Assembly (NCBI GenBank): GCA_013141375.1
Contig: JABFRC010000373.1
Span: 1 to 36,891, forward strand
Reading direction: 5' to 3'
Length of the DNA: 36,891 bases
Source: Methylococcaceae bacterium
GTDB taxonomy: Bacteria > Pseudomonadota > Gammaproteobacteria > Methylococcales > Methylomonadaceae
Below are positions 3,638-32,423 of the stretch, piece after piece. The position numbers were made by a program, and so were the translations under genes. The notes under the pieces are model-generated. The model searched no databases and was not told the origin of the DNA. It saw nothing but the letters and a program-made list of their open reading frames with translations. Positions within the stretch are counted from its first letter, which is position 1. Each line of letters starts with the position of its first letter.

Positions 3638-4252
3638 ATGGCAATCAAACCGCTACTCATTAGCGTTCTTGAAAGTGCGCTGAATACCTATCTTGCGTTA
3701 GACCAGAATTCAGCCCAACTATTGGCGCCGCTGGCGGGTAAGGTGATTGCTGTAAATATTCAGCCTTTTGACGAAACTATATACCTCTGCCCCAGCAATG
3801 ATGCCATTCAACTGCTTGATCAGTTTCCCGGTCAAGCAGACACCCTGCTCACCGGCTCCTTGTCGGCATTAGGTTTCATGGGCTTAAGCGCCACACCAAT
3901 GCGCGCAATATTTTCCGGGAACGTTAAAATCGAAGGCGATATTCATGCCGGACAGAAGTTTCAAGACTTGTTCGTGAAACTGAATATCAATCTGGAGCAA
4001 CACCTTGCCAAACTCACTGGTGAAACGATTGCCAATAACATCAGTCAATTTTTCCGCAGTGGAAAAGACTGGAGCCAAGAGTCGCTAGAAACTTTCCGGC
4101 TGAACACCGCTGAGTTTTTACAGGAAGAAACCCGCGAGTTACCCGCCAAAGCTGAAATAGAGCTTTTCTTTCAACGTGTTGATGATCTACGCACAGATTT
4201 CGATCGTCTTCAAAGCAGAATAGATCGGCTTGAAAACCTTCATAGCCAATAA
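3638..4252 (+). CDS. ubiJ: Ubiquinone biosynthesis accessory factor UbiJ (SCP2 domain)
   Basis: UbiJ is a lipid-binding accessory protein of the cytoplasmic Ubi complex that makes ubiquinone; its SCP2 (sterol carrier protein 2) fold is thought to hold the polyprenyl intermediates. The 204-residue protein shows the SCP2-like domain at about residues 15-115 (LLAPLAGKVIAVNI, then FSGNVKIEGD) and a charged heptad-like C-terminus (about 165-202, RVDDLRTDFDRLQSRIDRLE) likely to be a coiled coil, as in other UbiJ proteins. It lies three bases behind ubiE. The usual third gene, ubiB, is not next: acnB follows on the same strand after a 134-base gap. Confidence 0.92.
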   Translation: MAIKPLLISVLESALNTYLALDQNSAQLLAPLAGKVIAVNIQPFDETIYLCPSNDAIQLLDQFPGQADTLLTGSLSALGFMGLSATPMRAIFSGNVKIEGDIHAGQKFQDLFVKLNINLEQHLAKLTGETIANNISQFFRSGKDWSQESLETFRLNTAEFLQEETRELPAKAEIELFFQRVDDLRTDFDRLQSRIDRLENLHSQ

Positions 4253-4386
4253 TTTCACCCCGGATTATCGCAGTAACAGGGAAACAATCCGTTTCTTCAT
4301 AGTGTGTCAAATGACCCACTTTAATATTGCATAATGATCAACAGTAGCTGTTTCCAATTCTTAACTCACACCTTAAGGAATACCAC

Positions 4387-6954
4387 ATGCTAGAACAATA
4401 CCGTCAACAGGTTGCCGAACGTGCTGCTGAAAGCATACCGCCAAAACCTCTGGATGCTGAACAGGTAGCGGCTTTAGTCGAATTGGTTAAGTCTCCCCCT
4501 GAAGGTGAACAAGAATTTATCCTGGATTTATTAAGCAACCGCATACCGGCAGGGGTTGACGAGGCTGCTTATGTTAAAGCCGGATTTCTTAACGCTATTG
4601 CCAAAGGCGAAATCAGCTCGCCGATTCTGACTGCAACACGCGCCACCGAATTACTCGGCACCATGCTCGGCGGTTATAACGTCGCCCCCTTAATCGACTT
4701 ACTGGATCACCAAGAGTTAGCACCGATTGCGGCCAAAGCCTTATCCCACACATTGCTGATTTTCGATGCCTTCCACGATGTTCAAGAAAAGGCTGATGCG
4801 GGCAATACCCACGCCAAACAGGTTTTACAATCCTGGGCAGAGGCCGAATGGTTTACCGCTAAGCCCGAAGTACCGGAAAAACTCACGGTAGCCATTTTCA
4901 AAGTGCCTGGCGAAACCAACACCGATGACTTATCGCCGGCCCCGGATGCCTGGTCGCGCCCTGATATTCCATTACACGCCAAAGCCATGCTGAAGATGCC
5001 GCGAGAAGGTATCACCAACGCACAACAACAAATTGCAGATCTAAAACAGCACGGTTTTCCAGTCGCTTATGTCGGCGATGTGGTAGGGACCGGCTCATCA
5101 CGTAAGTCGGCGACCAATTCGGTATTGTGGTACACCGGTGATGACATTCCGTTTATCCCCAACAAACGCGCCGGTGGCGTCTGTATTGGCAGCAAAATCG
5201 CACCAATCTTTTTTAATACCATGGAAGATTCTGGCGCGCTACCCATTGAGTGCGATGTCAGCCAACTAGCCACTGGCGATATTATTGATATTTATCCGCA
5301 TCAAGGCGTAATCAAACGCCACAACAGCAATGACACCATCACTAAATTTGCCTTAAAAACCGACATCATTCTCGACGAAGTCCGTGCCGGCGGCCGCATT
5401 CCGTTGATTATCGGCCGCGGGCTCACCGATCGTGCCCGTAAGGTATTAGGCTTACCAGTATCGACTGTCTTCAAACGCCCAAGCGCTACTCAAGACAGCA
5501 GCAAAGGCTATACGCTGGCACAGAAAATCGTCGGCAAGGCTTGCGGCGTTACCGGTGTTCGCCCTAATACTTACTGCGAACCGCATATGACCACCGTCGG
5601 TTCACAAGATACCACCGGCCCGATGACGCGGGACGAGCTAAAAGATCTCGCCTGTTTGGGATTTTCAGCCGATTTAGTGTTGCAATCTTTCTGCCATACT
5701 GCCGCCTATCCCAAACCGGTCGACGTCACCATGCAACATACCCTGCCCGATTTCATCATGAATCGCGGGGGCGTGTCCTTGCGTCCCGGCGACGGCATTA
5801 TTCACTCCTGGCTGAACCGCACGCTATTACCTGACACCGTCGGTACCGGCGGTGATTCTCATACCCGTTTCCCGATTGGCATCTCCTTTCCGGCAGGTTC
5901 CGGTTTGGTAGCGTTTGCTGCTGCGACTGGTGTAATGCCCTTGGACATGCCGGAATCGGTATTGGTGCGCTTTTCCGGCAAACTACAACCGGGCATTACT
6001 TTGCGGGATTTGGTCAATGCGATTCCGTATGCAGCCATTCAACGCGGCTTACTGACTGTCGAAAAGAAGGGCAAAAAGAATATTTTCTCAGGACGCATTC
6101 TGGAAATTGAAGGCTTGCCGGATTTAAAAGTCGAACAGGCATTCGAATTATCCGACGCCTCGGCAGAGCGCTCGGCCGGTGGCTGTACCGTTCGCCTTAA
6201 CGAAGCGCCGATTCGCGAATACCTGACTTCCAACATCACCTTGTTGAACTGGATGATTGCCCAAGGTTATGGCGATGTGCGCACTATAGAACGCCGCATC
6301 AAAGCCATGGAAGCCTGGCTGGCGAATCCGGTATTGTTACAACCCGATGCGGATGCCGAATATTTTGAAATCATCGAGATCAACCTGGATGAAATCAAAG
6401 AACCGCTTTTGGCCTGTCCTAACGACCCGGACGACATCAAACCATTGTCAGCTGTCGCAGGCACCAAAATCGACGAAGTATTCTTGGGCTCGTGCATGAC
6501 CAATATCGGCCATTTCCGGGCCGCAGGCAAATTGCTGGAGCAACAAAAAGGCGAGTTACCTACCCGCCTTTGGGTGGCTCCACCGACAAAAATGGATCAA
6601 AGTCAGCTGATAGAAGAAGGCTATTACGGCACCTTCGGCAAAGCCGGTGCAAGAACCGAAATGCCTGGCTGTTCGCTATGCATGGGTAATCAAGCGCGTG
6701 TCGCCGAAAACTCCACAGTGGTATCTACCTCGACGCGCAATTTCCCTAATCGCTTGGGCAACGGTGCCAATGTCTATTTGTCTTCTGCAGAATTAGCCGC
6801 AGTATGTTCAATTTTGGGAAAAATCCCTAGCTTTGAAGAATACATGGGCTATATGAATCAGATTTCTCAAAGCGCTGACGATACTTATCGCTATCTTAAC
6901 TTTGACAAGATTGACAGCTATCACACTCAACCTGAAGCAAGCCCTGCCCTATAA
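4387..6954 (+). CDS. acnB: Aconitate hydratase B (bifunctional aconitase / 2-methylisocitrate dehydratase)
   Basis: AcnB interconverts citrate and isocitrate through cis-aconitate in the TCA cycle, using a [4Fe-4S] cluster. The 855-residue length fits AcnB (E. coli 865). In order: an N-terminal HEAT-like helical domain (about 1-160), the swivel domain in its AcnB-specific early position (about 160-370, with [19 protein letters not shown] and [10 protein letters not shown]), then the catalytic core with [20 protein letters not shown] and the cluster cysteines in [15 protein letters not shown] and [12 protein letters not shown]. The start ATG has AAGGAA upstream. A 134-base gap separates it from ubiJ, so it probably has its own promoter, though I could not settle on one. 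The next gene starts 12 bases after its stop. Confidence 0.97.
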
Positions 6955-6966
6955 GAGTTGTTTTCC

Positions 6967-8064
6967 ATGCCTGGTTTACTCGAAAAGCAATACCAGGACT
7001 GGGTGTCGCAGGGGCGACTTGATGTCGACCCTGCACAAATCCACGCATTAAAAAAACTCCAAACGCTTCAACTCCAGCTGTGTGATCAAATTTCATTCAA
7101 GCCCAAAGCTATAATGAAAAAATGGCGACGCCCTGCCCAATGCCGCAATATTTATCTTTTTGGGGAAGTTGGCCGGGGCAAATCCATGCTCATGAACATG
7201 TTCTTCCAAAGTTGCCCGACACAACAAAAGCGCCGGGTGCATTTTCATGCTTTCATGCTGGAATTGCACAACTTCGTTCATCATTGGCAAAATCAGGGCG
7301 GTGTAGACGCTATTTCAGCCTTGGCAGAACATCTCAGCAGCGCAAATAAACTACTCTGCCTGGATGAATTTCATATTTCCGATATTGCTGACGCTATGCT
7401 TATTGCGCAGCTGTTTGGTAAATTGTTCGAATCCGGCTTGGCCATCGTAACCACATCCAACTTTTGCCCCACAGAACTGTATCAAGGCGGCTTGCAAAGA
7501 GAACTGGTTCTGCCTTTCATCAAAATTCTCCAAGAAAGTGCAGAGGTGGTTGAATTATCCGGCACCAAAGACTACCGAAAAGCTCAATCTCCATCAGAAA
7601 ACAATCACTACTTCTATCCCCTCGATAGCCAGGCATCAGAGTTTGCCAAGCAACAATATAACCATTTGACTGATTGGGCTCCCATCCAACCTGAAACCAT
7701 TCAAGTGCTAAGCAGACAGATCAAGCTCACGGCGGTATCTGGCAATATTGCACTAGCATCCTTTCAAGAATTGTGTACCCAGCCACTTGGCTCGGTTGAC
7801 TATCTGGTTATCTCACGCCATTTTGAAACACTCATCCTCACAAATATCCCGAAACTAACCCCTGAAAACAGGAACGAAGCCAAACGCTTTATCACACTTA
7901 TCGACATTCTTTACGAACATAAAGTAAAGTTAATATGTACTGCCGAAGTCCCACTTAATGAATTGTACGATACCGAAGATATACTTGATTTTCGCCGCAC
8001 ACTCTCAAGGCTTTTTGAAATGCAATCTACGCAGTATTTAGCTCTAAACGACGATAACCATTAA
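6967..8064 (+). CDS. zapE: AFG1/ZapE-family cell division ATPase
   Basis: This belongs to the AFG1/ZapE P-loop ATPases; E. coli ZapE binds the FtsZ ring and is needed for division under stress, while mitochondrial AFG1 relatives act in protein quality control. Starting at ATG 6967 (AAGAG nine bases upstream; an in-frame TTG at 6958 is less likely) the protein has 365 residues, the usual size. Seen: the N-terminal LL..Y...V..G.L..D..Q..AL..L pattern, Walker A GEVGRGKS (66-73), FHAFMLELH, Walker B LLCLDEF (129-135) followed by DIADAMLIAQLF, TTSNFCPTELY and GGLQRELVLPFI. It is only 12 bases behind acnB, so probably co-transcribed. ZapE is the best name, but cell-division function is inferred from the family. 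Confidence 0.88.
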   Translation: MPGLLEKQYQDWVSQGRLDVDPAQIHALKKLQTLQLQLCDQISFKPKAIMKKWRRPAQCRNIYLFGEVGRGKSMLMNMFFQSCPTQQKRRVHFHAFMLELHNFVHHWQNQGGVDAISALAEHLSSANKLLCLDEFHISDIADAMLIAQLFGKLFESGLAIVTTSNFCPTELYQGGLQRELVLPFIKILQESAEVVELSGTKDYRKAQSPSENNHYFYPLDSQASEFAKQQYNHLTDWAPIQPETIQVLSRQIKLTAVSGNIALASFQELCTQPLGSVDYLVISRHFETLILTNIPKLTPENRNEAKRFITLIDILYEHKVKLICTAEVPLNELYDTEDILDFRRTLSRLFEMQSTQYLALNDDNH

Positions 8065-8072
8065 GGAAACTC

Positions 8073-8660
8073 ATGAAACACAAAATAATCTTACTGACTG
8101 CCTCATTGGGCTTGGTTGCAATACTACCGAATCATGCCAACGCCGAGAACTGGAAAGATGCGCTGAATTCAGTCAAAGAAAAGGCAAAAGGCAAATCATT
8201 AAACTCACTTACCCAAAAGTTGCCGGCCAATGCCCAAGCAGCTAACGCAATACAGGATATTAAATCAGGAAGCTTGACAGAGTTATTGGTGAACAAAGTG
8301 GGCGTCACTCAAGCACAAGCCGAAGGTGGCGCAGGTGCATTGTTTCAGGCAGCAAAAACCAAAATGAAACCGGAATCCTTTGCTGAATTGGAACAAAGCG
8401 TTCCAGGCATACAGTCCATGTTGGCAAAAGTGCCCGTTCAACCAGCTAATCTCGGCGCCTTAGCAGGAGGCTTGTCATCTCTAAAAGGTATTACAGGAAA
8501 CTCATCAGGGGAATTGCTTGCAGCCGCTTATGCTTTCAAACAACAAGGGATGTCGCCATCGATGATTCAACAATTCATTCCTGTCGTCGTTGAATATGTT
8601 AAAAATAACAGCAATGGCATCTTGGCCAACACCTTAAGTTCGGCGTTGATTGGACATTAG
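8073..8660 (+). CDS. Exported DUF2780 (VcgC/VcgE-like) protein
   Basis: A 195-residue secreted protein of the DUF2780 family, whose function is unknown. A Sec signal peptide is clear: a basic MKHK start, a hydrophobic core, and a probable cut after residue 24 (HANA|EN), so the mature protein is periplasmic or extracellular. The DUF2780 part spans about residues 65-195 and shows the recurrent pattern LLVNKVGVTQAQAEGGAGALF, VPGIQSML, then a GN..ELLAAAYAFKQQGMSPSMIQQFIPVVVEYV block. The start has a good AAGGAAA site and lies eight bases behind the ZapE gene, so it is probably the last gene of an acnB-zapE-DUF2780 unit. A strong hairpin terminator follows. Confidence 0.85.
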   Translation: MKHKIILLTASLGLVAILPNHANAENWKDALNSVKEKAKGKSLNSLTQKLPANAQAANAIQDIKSGSLTELLVNKVGVTQAQAEGGAGALFQAAKTKMKPESFAELEQSVPGIQSMLAKVPVQPANLGALAGGLSSLKGITGNSSGELLAAAYAFKQQGMSPSMIQQFIPVVVEYVKNNSNGILANTLSSALIGH

Positions 8661-8682
8661 ATCTACTTATACAGCTTCAATA

Positions 8683-8716
8683 AAAAAGCCTTTAACTCAA
8701 AGAGCTAAAGGCTTTT
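8683..8716. terminator. Bidirectional rho-independent terminator between the DUF2780 gene and mltD
   Basis: An 11-base-pair stem (AAAAGCCTTTA paired with TAAAGGCTTTT) around a short loop, with A-runs on one side and T-runs on the other. It lies between two genes that end toward each other and can stop transcription from both. Confidence 0.88.
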
Positions 8717-8743
8717 CATGTTACTTCCAAAACGCAAAATAAA

Positions 8744-10444
8744 TCAGGTAGTTCGATTTCCCGAACTAAGAATAACCTTGATTATTTTGCCAGGCGTTAA
8801 TGATTTGTTAACTGCAGTCGGAGCATTCCATTTACGCAAATCAGTCACTGAAACATTAAACTTGCGGGAAATCTGGACCAGTGAATCGCCTTGCCTTACG
8901 ATATAGCTAATCGAGCGGGCATTATTAGCGCTTGCAGTCACGGGTACAGCACTAGAAGCAACCGCAAGACTTTGCCCAGCAACGCTCTTGATTTTTAATT
9001 TCTGCCCAGACACTAAGGCCGATTGCGGATTGAGATTATTCATCTGAGCAACCTCTTTGGCTCCCATAGAGAAGCGTTTCGCCACATTAAAAAGGGTATC
9101 GCCTTTTTTTACAGAATACGATTGAGCCGTCGTCAGTGCATTGTCATTGTTTGCTTTAGCGGTTAGGAGTGGCAGCCCAGCATACTTGCTCGTTGCTTTA
9201 GTGCTGACGCCAGGTATTTGCAGAACCGTTCCTACTCTAACAACGCTTGATGTCAGATGATTGGCTTTACGCAGCACCTCTATGGAGGTGTTATGTTTTC
9301 TGGCAATAGCGGTTAAGCCTTCGCCTGCCTTCACTTTGTATAGAGATGTTAATAATCTTGGCTCAGGCTCTTCGCGTTTCGCTAAAATTGAAGTATCTCT
9401 TGGAATAAACTTTTGCTTCACACGTTCGTCATAAGGCAGTTGCGCCAAATTATGTTTGAACGATTCCACTTTTTCGACGGGAATCAGCAATTGATGCGGG
9501 CCTTGGGGCGAAGTCGTTGCGTGATTAAAGCCGGGATTAAGTTTTAAAATCTCAAAAAGCGGGGTGTCGGCTAATTCAGCAGCTTTAGGCAAATCCAACT
9601 GGGAATGCACATCAACCACCTCAAAATAAGGTTTATTCGGAATGTGCTGCAACCGAATATTGTAATCGTCGGCATTGGCGAAGATTCTGGCAACCGCCAA
9701 TAACCTGGGTACATAATTCATGGTTTCTTCAGGAAGACTTAAAGACCAGTAATCGGTTGGCAAATTAAGATCTTCATTGCGCTCAATGGCTTTTCTAACA
9801 TTGCCCTTACCGTAATTATAAGACGCCAGGGCAAGCAGCCAATCTCCATCAAAAGTCTCACTCAGCTGTTTCAAATAGTCGGTTGCCGCTTTGGTGGAGG
9901 CATAGACATCACGGCGACCGTCGTACCAGTAGTTTTGCTGCAGACCGAAATCGTTACCTGTTGACGGAATAAACTGCCAAAGACCAGAGGCGTCACTTTT
10001 GGAATAAGCATCCGGCAAAAACGCACTTTCAACCACTGGTAACAACGCTAATTCGCCTGGTATATCCTTGGCATCGATTTCTTCGAGGATATGATGCAAA
10101 TACGGTTGGGCGCGCTGCTGAATAATCGCCAACGATGCCGGGTGCTGTAAATACCATTCAACTTCACGGTCGATCCGTTCGTTATCTATATCAGGTAAGG
10201 AATACATTGCAAGCATCCGCTCCCATACTGTGTTTTTATGGTCGGAAGAGATTTTGACTTTATTTTTATTAAAAAAACCGGTTTTATTAGTAGGGTGCCT
10301 GACATAGCCATTGTCAACCTGACTTGACTGTGGCGGAGTATCGCTGATACTCAGAGGTGCTTTGGATGTATCGGTACAACCGACAATTATTAGCGAGATC
10401 AAAAGTAATAAAAAATTAGCTGACCTGTTAAAATTAACCTGCAT
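8744..10444 (-). CDS. mltD: Membrane-bound lytic murein transglycosylase D with three LysM domains
   Basis: MltD cleaves peptidoglycan between MurNAc and GlcNAc, forming 1,6-anhydro-MurNAc ends, from the inner face of the outer membrane. The 566-residue preprotein has a lipoprotein signal (hydrophobic core, lipobox IVGC, Cys23). The SLT domain spans about 125-235, with probable catalytic Glu139 in LLPVVESAF, then SDASGLWQFIPSTG and LALASYNYGKGNV. Three LysM peptidoglycan-binding repeats follow at about 368-410, 443-486 and 513-558; E. coli MltD has two. The ATG at 10444 has an AGAG site close upstream. It is divergent from a yafS-like gene, a remnant of the mltD-gloB-yafS-rnhA-dnaQ order of enterobacteria, without gloB. 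Confidence 0.95.
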   Translation of the reverse strand: MQVNFNRSANFLLLLISLIIVGCTDTSKAPLSISDTPPQSSQVDNGYVRHPTNKTGFFNKNKVKISSDHKNTVWERMLAMYSLPDIDNERIDREVEWYLQHPASLAIIQQRAQPYLHHILEEIDAKDIPGELALLPVVESAFLPDAYSKSDASGLWQFIPSTGNDFGLQQNYWYDGRRDVYASTKAATDYLKQLSETFDGDWLLALASYNYGKGNVRKAIERNEDLNLPTDYWSLSLPEETMNYVPRLLAVARIFANADDYNIRLQHIPNKPYFEVVDVHSQLDLPKAAELADTPLFEILKLNPGFNHATTSPQGPHQLLIPVEKVESFKHNLAQLPYDERVKQKFIPRDTSILAKREEPEPRLLTSLYKVKAGEGLTAIARKHNTSIEVLRKANHLTSSVVRVGTVLQIPGVSTKATSKYAGLPLLTAKANNDNALTTAQSYSVKKGDTLFNVAKRFSMGAKEVAQMNNLNPQSALVSGQKLKIKSVAGQSLAVASSAVPVTASANNARSISYIVRQGDSLVQISRKFNVSVTDLRKWNAPTAVNKSLTPGKIIKVILSSGNRTT

Positions 10445-10482
10445 TCTCTTAGCCCTAGGGTGTGATTTAACTAAACGATTTC

Positions 10483-10488
10483 ATTATA
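10483..10488 (-). promoter_or_regulatory. Candidate -10 box for mltD
   Basis: A perfect TATAAT on the minus strand, about 40 bases upstream of the mltD start. No convincing -35 hexamer at 16-18 bases was found, so either the promoter is activator-dependent or this is a chance match. Confidence 0.35.
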
Positions 10489-10541
10489 GCTCGTTTGAGT
10501 CGAAAATCACTAAAGTCGCGACTTAACACTTATGTAGAGCA

Positions 10542-11252
10542 ATGAAACGTAATTTTCTGTTTTCATATTACCAAACGCCACGCGGCAAACTGCTTAAAGA
10601 CCTTGAAGTAGAATATCTCCAACGTTCCATTACGGTGAGTTGCCAACAAACGATTTTACAGATTGGCGGACTCGGTTGGGAAAATGACTTTATCGATAGC
10701 ACCTTGTATAAAAGCTTTATCATTCTTGACTCCAAACAACTCGGCGCTTGCCCGGCAAAAAAAATTCAAGCTAAATCCTACTTATTACCATTGCAATGCA
10801 ATAGCGTCGACATGATTCTGCTTCCACATATTTTAGAGTTTGACGCCTTCCGCTTCCAAAGTATGAGGGAAATTGAGCGTGTACTAAAACCCGAAGGCGT
10901 TGTTGTTATTTTGAATTTCAACCCATGGAGCTTTTGGGTTCGCTACCAATTTTTGTGGGACAAGAAAATGTCAGACTCCTGGAGAGGTCATTTTTTATCA
11001 CAATCGAGAATGCTGGACTGGTTAAAGTTATTAAACTTTGAAGTCACTGTCACCTCAGAATTTCATTTGGATTCAGTGAGGTCGACGCATGACAAATCCA
11101 TTACCAAAAACTGTTCGTTATCATCAACAGCCTATGGAATCAGAGCCATAAAACGTCGCTATAATCTTATTCCGCTCACGCCGGTTGAGGCCACTCAGCC
11201 TCGCCTGGCTATGGCACATTTGATCACTTCAGCCAAAGAACAACACGAATGA
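10542..11252 (+). CDS. YafS-like class I SAM-dependent methyltransferase
   Basis: A 236-residue protein that looks like a methyltransferase of the Methyltransf_11 type, as E. coli YafS, which also sits just before rnhA. Seen: TILQIGGLG at the motif-I position (about residue 36-45), [19 protein letters not shown] (motif II-like) and [22 protein letters not shown] (motif III and beyond). Motif I lacks the usual acidic D-x-G-x-G form, so SAM binding may be modified. The substrate is unknown for this family. The stop codon overlaps the rnhA start by four bases (ATGA), so translation is coupled with RNase HI. The 97-base gap upstream is shared with divergent mltD. Confidence 0.8.
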
Positions 11253-11689
11253 CCAAATCAGTAATCATACATACAGATGGTGCCTGTCGAGGCAACCCCG
11301 GACCTGGCGGCTGGGGCGTTTTGCTTTTTTATAATGGCATAAAAAAAGAACTGTATGGAGGCGCACCAGAAACAACAAACAATCGAATGGAATTAATGGC
11401 GGCCATACAAGCGCTGGAAACGCTTTCCGATCCTTGTGCAGTCGTTCTGAACACCGATTCAAAATATGTACTGCAAGGCATCACCGAATGGATGATTAAT
11501 TGGAAAAAAAGAGACTGGAAGACTGCCAACCGTCAACCGGTAAAAAATGAAGATTTGTGGCGCAGGCTAGATGCCGCGATTCAGCGCCACCACATCACTT
11601 GGCAATGGGTAAAAGGTCATAGTGGCGACACGGGTAACGAAAAAGCCGATGCGCTTGCAAACGCAGGCATTGATTCATTAACCCGCTAA
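11249..11689 (+). CDS. rnhA: Ribonuclease HI
   Basis: RNase HI cuts the RNA strand of RNA-DNA hybrids (R-loops, primers). The 146-residue protein keeps all catalytic residues at the E. coli numbering: Asp10 ([16 protein letters not shown]), Glu48 ([10 protein letters not shown]), Asp70 (NTDSKYV), His124 (VKGHSG) and Asp134 (GNEKADALA). The start overlaps the stop of the methyltransferase gene. Its stop lies only four bases from the end of the oppositely oriented HNH gene, so there is no room for a separate terminator between them. Confidence 0.98.
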
Positions 11690-29689: not shown

Positions 29690-30652
29690 CTAAACCTTTA
29701 AAACACTGCCACCTTCGTTTCTTGCGCTGGCAACAACAAAACTAAGCTTGTCGTTGTCTGAAAATTTTGCTCCGGCTTCTGCAACCAAGCGTTCAGCCAG
29801 ATGTTGATTGGCTACCGCGCAAAATCCGGTCGGCCCCCATGAGGTTTGCCCGATCGCAACCGCGCCCTGTTGTGCGAACCAATGTATGGCCTTGGCCACT
29901 TCTGCACTGGCAAACACACCCCCCTGAGCTGTGGCAAAATGCTCACCCACCGATTTTTGCAATTGACTGATGGTATCGCCAAATTGCTGGAGATTTTGCT
30001 CGGCCACTGCAGGCAAACCTTGCATCAGCAATAGATAACACAGGCGTGCTGCTTCCAAATGCGAAAATGTCGGCAGTGCTTTAAACGCCTGTACTTCTTG
30101 CTGACCATGCAAGCCCTGCCCCCGCTCATCAAAAACCAGAATAAATCGCCAATCTTCGGGCACAGGCAATCGCGACAACACAGGCGGTGTCACAGTATGT
30201 TCTCCACGACCACCATCGACCACCAGCCCCCCTTGTTCGAACACGCCAATACCAATCCCGGAACGCCGTCCACGATCAGTCAGCGCCGCAATATCCCGAA
30301 TGCTTAAACCTAAGTTGTAATACGCATTTAAACCAAGACCGATCGCCAAGGACATTTGCGTGCCAGAACCCAAGCCAACATGCTCAGGAATTGCAGATTC
30401 GATAGAAATATTCAGTTGATCGGATACATGTAAAGCATCAGCCAGCAAGGTAAGACATTTTTCAGCGCGTTGCGCACAAGGTCCGGAAACACTCCGCTGT
30501 TCAGCGTGAGTAATTGTCAGTCGAGTGCTAATTTCATTAAGTGCAACGCCTATGCTGCCGAAATGGCGACCAAGAGACCCGCTTAAATCGATAAAGCCCA
30601 TGTGCAATCTGGCGGGAGCGATGACGGTGATTTTTGAATGTTCGGCTATCAA
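29690..30652 (-). CDS. Beta-ribofuranosylaminobenzene 5'-phosphate synthase family protein (H4MPT biosynthesis)
   Basis: RFAP synthase joins a benzoate (p-aminobenzoate in bacteria) to phosphoribosyl pyrophosphate with loss of CO2, the first committed step to the arylamine part of tetrahydromethanopterin, the C1 carrier used by methylotrophs to oxidise formaldehyde. The 320-residue protein has the GHMP-kinase-like fold of the family: ITVIAPARLHMGFIDLSGSLGR at the N-terminus, the PEHVGLGSGTQMSLAIGLG loop (89-107), RSGIGIGVFEQGGLVVDGGR and the C-terminal IGQTSWGPTGFC. The start is TTG at 30652 with no clear Shine-Dalgarno; no ATG or GTG lies between it and the conserved N-terminus. It is 51 bases behind the HAD gene. 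Confidence 0.9.
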   Translation of the reverse strand: MIAEHSKITVIAPARLHMGFIDLSGSLGRHFGSIGVALNEISTRLTITHAEQRSVSGPCAQRAEKCLTLLADALHVSDQLNISIESAIPEHVGLGSGTQMSLAIGLGLNAYYNLGLSIRDIAALTDRGRRSGIGIGVFEQGGLVVDGGRGEHTVTPPVLSRLPVPEDWRFILVFDERGQGLHGQQEVQAFKALPTFSHLEAARLCYLLLMQGLPAVAEQNLQQFGDTISQLQKSVGEHFATAQGGVFASAEVAKAIHWFAQQGAVAIGQTSWGPTGFCAVANQHLAERLVAEAGAKFSDNDKLSFVVASARNEGGSVLKV

Positions 30653-30703
30653 AATTGAAGTGTGTAGTAACGCATAAGAGTGGCCGGATTATACATCAAC
30701 CGA

Positions 30704-31369
30704 CTATGCCCGGCTAACCGCCAGCGCCAACTCGACTAAATCATTTACAACCCAGTTACTCTGCTTGGCAGCTTGCGCGTCGATCGAAAAAGTTGAAGGC
30801 ACATAAACACAAAACGCTCCGGCATTGACTGCAGCAGCAACGCCTGTCGGCGAATCTTCAATGACCAAGCACTGCTTAATATCTGCCTGTAAACAGGCTG
30901 CCGTATGCAGATAAATATCAGGAGCAGGTTTGCCATGTTGAACATCATCGCAGGTCACTATCAGTGGGAATAAGTCTTTGAGCCCTGCCAGCGCCAGGCA
31001 TTCATGGGCGTTAATCTTCGGACTATTGGTCGCCAGGGCAAAAGGTAGTGCCTGCTGTTTGATGATATTTAAGAGTTGGGCAAACCCCGCTTTGACAGCA
31101 ATCCCATCTTTTTCAACATTCGCCCGCCAATGGCTCGCGCTTAACTGGTTAAACGCAGCCAAATCAAAGTCGGCACCGCAGTGCGCCAGCATTAGCCGTT
31201 CTACGTCAGCATGCTGCAAACCGGATATGGCTTGACCAAAATCATCACCCAGCTCAAACCCCATCCCCTCAGCCGTTTGCTGCCAGGCCTTGATATAAGT
31301 GCTTTCGGTATCCAACACCAAGCCGTCCATATCGAAGATAACCGCGGCAAAATCAGCCAAATCGATCAT
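30704..31369 (-). CDS. HAD superfamily phosphatase (subfamily IA, beta-phosphoglucomutase-like)
   Basis: A 221-residue haloacid-dehalogenase hydrolase of the small-phosphoester type. Motif I DMDGLVLDTE supplies the nucleophile Asp13 and acid/base Asp15; motif II is ATNSP; motif III Lys lies in HGKPAPDIY; motif IV is EDSPTGVAAAVNAG. A helical cap fills about residues 18-85. The start overlaps the stop of the nucleotidyltransferase gene by four bases (ATGA), and RFAP synthase follows, so the gene is probably part of an H4MPT-linked operon. The substrate cannot be told from sequence; a phosphorylated pathway intermediate is an inference from context. Confidence 0.88.
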   Translation of the reverse strand: MIDLADFAAVIFDMDGLVLDTESTYIKAWQQTAEGMGFELGDDFGQAISGLQHADVERLMLAHCGADFDLAAFNQLSASHWRANVEKDGIAVKAGFAQLLNIIKQQALPFALATNSPKINAHECLALAGLKDLFPLIVTCDDVQHGKPAPDIYLHTAACLQADIKQCLVIEDSPTGVAAAVNAGAFCVYVPSTFSIDAQAAKQSNWVVNDLVELALAVSRA

Positions 31370-32292
31370 GACAACACTTTAATAAATTCACCGCGCGCTT
31401 CCCGACTGGAACCAACCACAATACGTTGATGGCCTTGTGACGATTGCTCCAGCATCCCGGACACCAACACCGTTTCACCGCATAAGGCCTGACCGGTGTA
31501 TGTTGCGGTAAAGCTGACTATCGAGATAATATGTTCATGATCGATTTTGAATTCAGCCGGATAGTCAAAGCCGTAAGTGTCATCAATAACCTGGCATTGC
31601 AACGTGATCGGGCCGACTTTTTGGTAACCCTCGACATGATCGATTGTCTGATTACAAATAAAATTCAAATCGAATTTCCTGCCGTTAATCATGGCTTTGT
31701 TCGCCTTGCGCTGCTCATGCCACACATACTCATCAAAACTTAACTCACAATCACGGCGATTATAAGAATCCTGCCAGTCTCGATCAGTTAAATCCTGTAG
31801 TTTGCCATCAGCGATTAATCCGGCAGTCACTGCGCGGCATTGATGAAAAACATCTCGCCCGTAACACACCACATCAATATCCGAGCTTTGCTTTTGCACA
31901 CCAATCAGCAAGGAGCCGGTAATGCCGATATTGGCTAAATTCAGTCCGTGTTGCTGAAACAAAATCGCCAGACTAAGTAAATCCTGCTCAACCGGATCAT
32001 GATTATCAGCCTGCAACAACTGCTGAAATCGTTGTTTCGGCTGATGGTGTTTGGAGATTTTTTCCTTTGAAACAGCATGCAAATGCGCATCCAACACCTG
32101 CGAATAATGTAAATAGTGTGGATGATGCTGCTTAAGAAAATCGTTGGCCACGTCGGTATCGACTTTGCGCCAGCTATCTTGGTGCGGTACATAGCGCAAG
32201 AAACACAGCACTTTGTCGGCTTCCATGCCCTGCCCGACAACGGCAAATACCAAGCCTTCGGCGGTCTCAATAAAATCTTTGGCGACAAACAT
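31366..32292 (-). CDS. Predicted nucleotidyltransferase, archaeal-like, in the H4MPT-linked operon
   Basis: A 308-residue protein starting at ATG 32292 (MFVAKDFIETAEGLVFAVV); the frame is open to a TTG at 32337, but the shorter start resembles archaeal relatives that begin RDF.ET..GL.FAVV. An N-terminal domain (about 1-100) with CFLRYVPHQDSWRKVDTD precedes a polymerase-beta-type nucleotidyltransferase core: GITGSLLIG (Gly-Ser at 126-127) and SDIDVVCYG (Asp138, Asp140 as metal ligands). The C-terminus ends in SSREARGEFIKVL. No specific reaction is known to me. It is the first gene of a minus-strand unit with HAD phosphatase and RFAP synthase, which suggests a role in tetrahydromethanopterin synthesis or its control. 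Confidence 0.75.
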   Translation of the reverse strand: MFVAKDFIETAEGLVFAVVGQGMEADKVLCFLRYVPHQDSWRKVDTDVANDFLKQHHPHYLHYSQVLDAHLHAVSKEKISKHHQPKQRFQQLLQADNHDPVEQDLLSLAILFQQHGLNLANIGITGSLLIGVQKQSSDIDVVCYGRDVFHQCRAVTAGLIADGKLQDLTDRDWQDSYNRRDCELSFDEYVWHEQRKANKAMINGRKFDLNFICNQTIDHVEGYQKVGPITLQCQVIDDTYGFDYPAEFKIDHEHIISIVSFTATYTGQALCGETVLVSGMLEQSSQGHQRIVVGSSREARGEFIKVLS

Positions 32293-32423
32293 CTGCTCAC
32301 TCACTGGATTAAAAATCAGAGTAATTTTAACACGCAAAGTTAATGAAATTGCTGGGCTGGTTTAATTCAGGTTCAGCAAACTATGCTAATCTGCCGGCAC
32401 TGTAAAATAACGGGGGTAACGTC

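Follow-up and report, generated by a model that had tools for sequence, protein, structure and literature searches.

What does an uncharacterised nucleotidyltransferase do at the head of an operon that also encodes an enzyme of tetrahydromethanopterin (H4MPT) synthesis? The question is raised by positions 29,690 to 32,292 of a 36,891-nucleotide stretch of Methylococcaceae bacterium DNA (assembly GCA_013141375.1, contig JABFRC010000373.1; the whole stretch is referred to as the window), which forms one contig (C223) of a 3.9-Mb genome. Three genes follow one another here on the minus strand, namely a 308-residue nucleotidyltransferase (NT, 31,366-32,292), a haloacid dehalogenase-type (HAD) phosphatase of the beta-phosphoglucomutase-like group (30,704-31,369) and mptG (29,690-30,652), encoding ribofuranosylaminobenzene 5'-phosphate (RFAP) synthase. 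H4MPT is the main formaldehyde-handling cofactor in most methylotrophs, and we know of no proven enzyme for several steps in the synthesis of its tail. A first-pass annotation had described the three genes as an operon with a 4-base overlap and a 51-base gap, and both were reproduced at 31,366-31,369 (NT/HAD) and, from the open reading frame listing, at 30,653-30,703 (HAD/mptG). The listed NT reading frame begins upstream at a TTG (31,366-32,337), while the alignment of relatives begins at the ATG at 32,292, the start used here. In case of mptG, the listed TTG start agrees with relatives beginning MIVQHSK. We consider it slightly better than an even chance that NT and HAD form an accessory pair for the synthesis of H4MPT, less likely of methylofuran, in a subset of gammaproteobacterial methylotrophs.

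Conservation of the arrangement was analyzed using a genome scan that returned 390 NT relatives, of which the best 80 were kept; counts on these 80 lean to near kin, the closest named relatives being those of a Methylobacter sp. (81% NT identity) and a Methylococcaceae bacterium (80%), which points to a gammaproteobacterial methanotroph as the host. The HAD gene was found within 1.5 kb after NT in 62 of the 75 loci with room for it and mptG within 2.5 kb of NT in 48 of 67. Seven other genes of the window, sought locus-wide at more than 100 bits, occurred in only 2, 0, 0, 1, 0, 0 and 0 of the 80 loci, so the association of the three genes exceeds chance. Clustering of neighbours across 103 loci (80 + 20 + 3) returned, for the most part downstream and in the same orientation, HAD (68 loci), mptG (54), an ATP-grasp gene (28) and mch (23), followed by RimK-like (19), CitG-family (16) and fae (14) genes. 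Based on these neighbour counts, an H4MPT island of Methylobacter and its relatives begins with NT and HAD. The NT loci collected include those of Methylotuvimicrobium buryatense 5G (L075) and Methylomonas sp. LW13 (L086). Neighbour identities were determined on the L024 set, where orf5-like ATP-grasp, mch, RimK/MptN-like, CitG and fae genes are present. In an evenly drawn sample of 101 genomes of the order, 24 of the 33 own-family genomes have mptG downstream of NT at a distance of no more than 1.5 kb. Outside the family, HAD follows NT within 2.3 kb on the same strand at 12 of the 16 order loci examined and does not lie within that distance at the other four (L160, L163, L164 and L167).

Co-occurrence with H4MPT marker genes was assessed in a class sample of 369 genomes, 48 of which carry mch over the cut-off and one more (G696) below it. 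NT was found in 11 genomes, all of them mch-positive, and in none of the 321 others (Fisher p = 6e-11, uncorrected for relatedness). By family, all six NT-positive families are among the 26 mch-positive ones. This is in good agreement with a smaller class sample searched with a single NT protein, in which 4 of 143 genomes were positive. Eight NT-positive genomes lie outside the order; mch is present in all of them and RFAP synthase exceeds the cut-off in seven, with a fragment in the eighth (G684). Within the order sample, NT and RFAP synthase occur together in 78 of the 101 genomes, neither is found in 20, which make up families f223 and f260, and a single one in three, with G759 and G789 having only NT and G842 having only RFAP synthase; each of these three is assembled in 340 to 600 contigs. 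Checking five NT-positive order genomes for mch located the gene in G000, G136 and G634 and not in G759 or G789. The NT match in G820 is a fragment, and RFAP synthase is matched twice above the cut-off in each of G771 and G758. NT is thus near-exclusive to H4MPT-type genomes of the class. Wide occurrence outside H4MPT users, which would have spoken against the link drawn in the first-pass annotation, was not found among the mch-negative genomes of the class; distant relatives of about 25% identity do exist on Streptomyces plasmids, and homology this remote may escape the genome search. Some caution applies to marker genes as proof of H4MPT, since haloarchaeal relatives of mch and RFAP synthase are thought, according to an excerpt of PMC8305020, to serve folate or another purpose.

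A second linkage to cofactor genes was found in a different family. In G730 (locus L149), NT is immediately preceded by mfnB, a dihydropteroate-synthase-like gene and a PTPS gene, and the same island also holds mptG, mtdB, mch and MfnD-, MfnE- and MfnF-like genes. The latter three score below their NCBIfam equivalog cut-offs, with the MfnF-like protein passing TIGR03123 ('probable H4MPT-linked C1 transfer pathway protein'). With its differing gene order, this linkage is the strongest individual argument for a role of NT in cofactor synthesis, and it comes from one genome. Taken with the islands headed by NT and the presence of mch in every NT-positive genome of the class sample, its position beside mfnB supports the earlier association of NT with H4MPT. 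In the genome under study, another contig (C129) carries an orf5-like ATP-grasp gene (47% identity), mch, MptN-like, CitG-like, fae, MfnD-like and MfnF-like genes. Since these island genes sit apart from NT, HAD and mptG on C223, the strain's own H4MPT island is split between contigs. The remaining H4MPT/methylofuran island spans 3,640-11,639 of locus L173 (G000:C129), and the reading frame at 11,004-11,639, at the contig end beside the orf5-like gene, is presumably transposase-like, suggestive of a break in the island at this point. At three loci (L024:15256-15963, L149:10876-11784 and L173:5759-6466), the strand opposite to the H4MPT/methylofuran genes encodes a HisA-like protein among these genes or next to them; PF00977 was tested on the L149 copy and the other two were assigned by eye.

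The NT protein very probably is an active transferase, as predicted from its intact motif and from structural matches that are all of one kind. Its predicted structure comprises a mostly beta N-terminal domain with no assigned fold (residues 1-83; 32,044-32,292, minus strand as for all parts of the gene), a polymerase-beta-type nucleotidyltransferase core (residues 95-215; 31,648-32,010) assigned via VIA-align and Foldseek, and a C-terminal oligonucleotide/oligosaccharide-binding (OB) fold domain (residues 222-308; 31,369-31,629) assigned via VIA-align. The GS motif (G126, S127; 31,912-31,917), the metal-binding DxD motif (D138, D140; 31,873-31,881) and the third catalytic aspartate (D208; 31,669-31,671) are each conserved in 104 of 104 sequences. 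As expected for the superfamily, GS is followed by DxD and by a third acidic residue on a following strand, with strands taken from the model. Mean predicted local distance difference test (pLDDT) values were 94.5 for a model of residues 1-222 and 85.8 for the model including the OB domain. The whole-protein fold search was dominated by OB-fold and lysyl-tRNA synthetase matches, and the core was resolved after modelling without the OB domain. It then aligned with terminal uridylyltransferases (TUT7, Cid1), DNA polymerases beta, lambda and X and CCA enzymes at VIA-align Z values of 6.3-8.0 over 82-95 residues, with TUT7 at 8.0 (85 residues, 2.6 Å) and DNA polymerases beta and X and the CCA enzymes at 6.3-6.7. 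These values are middling, and the 50 matches shown are all polymerase-beta-type enzymes by title or recall. The top Foldseek match was a poly(A) polymerase (E 2e-3). For the OB domain, the matches shown include SSB, PriB, RPA and HIN domains (Z 7.8-9.2, 67-81 residues). Polymerase-beta-type folds resemble one another at this level, so the modelled fold does not tell the substrate, and neither does the OB domain.

Family searches place NT at the edge of known models. The window's protein scores 20.6-20.7 bits against PF01909 and 22.6 in the genome search (cut-off 21), and 19 of 20 NT members match this family at E values up to 10, the best being 2.7e-6. NT keeps the GS, DxD and third aspartate of this superfamily and has in addition a beta domain at the N-terminus and an OB fold at the C-terminus. 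No Pfam or NCBIfam model spans the entire protein. NCBIfam returned nothing credible (best E 0.088), PDB sequences gave no match at E up to 10, and a further PDB search gave an unrelated best match (E 0.045). Among viral contigs, 36 pattern matches included no NT relative. An anti-phage defence function was dropped after PADLOC yielded no meaningful family (best E 0.013). The distant relatives on Streptomyces plasmids are nucleotidyltransferase-domain proteins (20 plasmid records, e.g. WP_331761115.1) with 24-27% identity over 90-93% of NT; unlike NT, two that were aligned have lost the third aspartate and the KFD motif. At two of these plasmid loci (L169 and L170), the gene lies between a phosphotransferase and an S-adenosylmethionine (SAM) methyltransferase, and no H4MPT genes adjoin it.

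The two downstream genes were assigned with different degrees of specificity. The HAD protein matches PF13419 (E 3.5e-27) and reaches 135 bits over residues 8-190 against the beta-phosphoglucomutase family TIGR02009, with which it shares motifs while scoring under the subfamily cut-off of 153. All four catalytic motifs (DMDGLVLDTE, ATNS, GKP and EDS) are present in the window and are largely kept in the consensus of 68 relatives. Proteins of this family are very common. The mptG product passes TIGR00144 (165 bits, cut-off 113.5) and does not reach the equivalog model NF040726 (180.7 bits, cut-off 328). By its subfamily match and its island context it is assigned as a member of the RFAP synthase family, below the strict equivalog line.

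Based on these results, NT is a candidate that probably helps to build or modify H4MPT or methylofuran. Many genomes have the pathway genes and no NT, so its contribution would be to add or replace something. Most likely, NT would use its metal-dependent GS/DxD/D site to move a nucleotidyl or phosphoribosyl group onto the sugar-phosphate tail of the cofactor, and HAD would remove a phosphate in the same branch. Both the identity of the substrate, as cofactor or precursor, and the bond formed are inferred from context. As an operon-heading gene with a full catalytic site that is absent from all mch-negative genomes of the class sample, NT makes a well-defined candidate that lends itself to testing. 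It would either alter the structure of the cofactor, setting methanotroph H4MPT apart from that of Methylorubrum, or represent a methylotroph-specific control of formaldehyde oxidation.

Several observations weigh against a role of the pair in cofactor synthesis. NT was not detectable in 37 of the 48 mch-positive genomes of the class, one of which (G119) belongs to the same family (f121) as the NT- and mch-positive G620. In a phylum sample of 398 genomes, with NT and RFAP searches taken as covering the same genomes because the listed handles agree, RFAP synthase exceeds the cut-off in 20 (two more lie below it), and 19 of these lack NT, among them 14 from other classes of the phylum, the window's own genome being the only one with it. 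Since so many mch-positive genomes do without it, NT is dispensable or replaceable and not needed by all H4MPT users. A universal missing step of H4MPT synthesis is ruled out on the same count, and the suggestion of the first-pass annotation that the pair supplies a missing step of the bacterial pathway in general is not supported. Separation from RFAP synthase, the second observation that it named as speaking against its reading, was found outside the family, where mptG lies directly downstream of NT in none of 45 order genomes; in these it was found within 10 kb in 2, farther away on the same contig in 17 and on another contig in 26. HAD was beside NT in none of seven loci examined outside the order. 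Two of the 80 NT-positive order genomes (G759, 85% complete in 340 contigs, and G789, 91% complete in 530 contigs) hold neither RFAP synthase nor mch and are exceptions unless their incomplete assemblies miss these genes. Because the genomes are related, p-values overstate the number of independent events; NT falls into six families of the class sample. Further, hexulose-phosphate synthase exceeds the cut-off in 6 of 11 NT-positive and in 0 of 32 NT-negative mch-positive genomes, a search that left out five NT-negative genomes (G070, G586, G694, G714 and G551) as well as G696, where mch itself is below the cut-off. Finally, we know of no biochemistry for NT, and its predicted OB domain would suit a nucleic-acid substrate. 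G119 and G620 make a natural pair for comparing cofactor structure.

The OB domain leads to an alternative that we regard as unlikely, in which NT and HAD are a housekeeping or nucleic-acid pair, acting for example in RNA end addition or nucleotide repair, and their link to H4MPT reflects methylotroph ancestry and an accident of operon formation. Poly(A) polymerase, terminal uridylyltransferases and CCA enzymes being the top structural matches of the core, the resemblance of the OB fold to SSB and PriB, the separation of NT from mptG in the order outside the family, the two albeit incomplete NT-positive genomes without mch or RFAP synthase, and the Streptomyces plasmid relatives would all fit. 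Yet a housekeeping gene would not be expected to be missing from every mch-negative genome of the class, nor does an accident readily account for two distinct linkages to cofactor genes in two families, and the structural matches, as noted above, do not choose a substrate. Somewhat less likely again is that NT acts in methylofuran rather than H4MPT synthesis. NT directly adjoins mfnB in G730, and the islands mix genes of both cofactors, with orf5, orfY and orf17 acting in methylofuran synthesis according to an excerpt of PMC8141765. Against this, the nearest cofactor gene in the window's own family is mptG, described in an excerpt of PMC6787355 as the first committed step of H4MPT synthesis, and the open methylofuran steps named in the PMC8141765 excerpt (a transaminase and a glutamate-tyrosine ligation) need no nucleotidyl transfer.

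The distribution of hexulose-phosphate synthase bears on a further reading, the least probable of those considered, in which the pair modifies proteins and controls flux. NT would nucleotidylate an enzyme of the H4MPT pathway in a GlnE-like manner and the phosphatase would reverse or balance this, for example to tune formaldehyde oxidation in methylotrophs using the ribulose monophosphate (RuMP) pathway. All six of the searched mch-positive genomes with the synthase over the cut-off carry NT, which shares an operon with pathway genes while being dispensable for the pathway itself, all of which would suit such control. Five of the 11 NT-positive genomes lack the synthase over the cut-off, however, HADs of this group generally act on small phosphates and not on AMP-protein bonds, and no protein adenylyltransferase family appears among the Pfam matches of NT. 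The same five genomes led us to reject NT being a RuMP-pathway gene as the sole explanation. Since every searched mch-positive genome with the synthase has NT and five NT-positive genomes lack the synthase, NT leans to lineages of heavy formaldehyde traffic and is not tied to them, a pattern that also suits a control role.

Returning to the favoured role in cofactor synthesis, a more specific chemistry can be drawn from the CitG-family gene of the islands. CitG enzymes use ATP to form a 5''-triphospho-ribosyl ether, which CitX and MdcG, the latter an enzyme of nucleotidyltransferase fold, then link through a phosphodiester as pyrophosphate is released. In methanogens, the H4MPT tail contains an alpha-ribosyl phosphodiester to hydroxyglutarate. 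By analogy with this chemistry and this tail, and since M. extorquens uses dephospho-H4MPT (according to an excerpt of PMC6193120), NT could make the phosphodiester of the H4MPT tail in those lineages that have one. In the complete route, the CitG-like protein would attach alpha-ribosyl-triphosphate, derived from ATP, to the deoxyribitol end of an H4MPT precursor, NT would act in a CitX/MdcG-like manner, attaching a small hydroxy-compound through a phosphodiester with displacement of pyrophosphate, and HAD would trim a phosphate, resulting in a tail-extended H4MPT. We consider this full sequence of steps improbable as it stands. The prosthetic-group systems CitG/CitX and MdcB/MdcG, in which formation of triphosphoribosyl-dephospho-CoA is followed by nucleotidyl transfer, resemble the H4MPT islands in holding a CitG-family gene. 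The gene is not exclusive to NT carriers, PF01874 being found in all 48 mch-positive genomes searched (11 with and 37 without NT; G696 was left out). Only one of 20 NT members matched the MdcG family PF10620, at a non-significant E value of 0.098, and no CitX match was listed. If the route were true, the H4MPT of gammaproteobacterial methanotrophs would have an extended tail, in place of the dephospho form used by Methylorubrum, and a chemistry would be at hand for unassigned tail steps of methanopterin synthesis. By eye, a CitG-family gene lies near mch in most mch-positive genomes (e.g. L024:13642-14586 and L149:13773-14750).

Compared with known systems, the finding is a bacterial H4MPT island whose NT-HAD module is lineage-specific. 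The H4MPT/methylofuran cluster of Methylorubrum extorquens and other bacteria likewise combines mptG, mch, fae and orf5-, orf17- and mfnB/E/F-like genes in one island, as described in excerpts of PMC8141765 and PMC5020050; unlike the island described here, the cluster genes named in these excerpts include neither a nucleotidyltransferase nor a HAD phosphatase. No paper on the NT-HAD pair was found in the open-licence literature, with earlier mention in older subscription papers being possible, and the text of the Methylococcus genome paper (PMC517821) contains neither 'methanopterin' at the start of a word nor 'RFAP'.

Two minor observations concern the surroundings of NT. Scans for promoter-like and terminator-like sites gave counts at or below chance. 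At six loci (L087, L155, L157, L158, L159 and L163), a flavin reductase-like gene adjoins or lies near NT, mostly just upstream; PF01613 was tested on the L159 copy, and the gene could encode a reductase of the same pathway.

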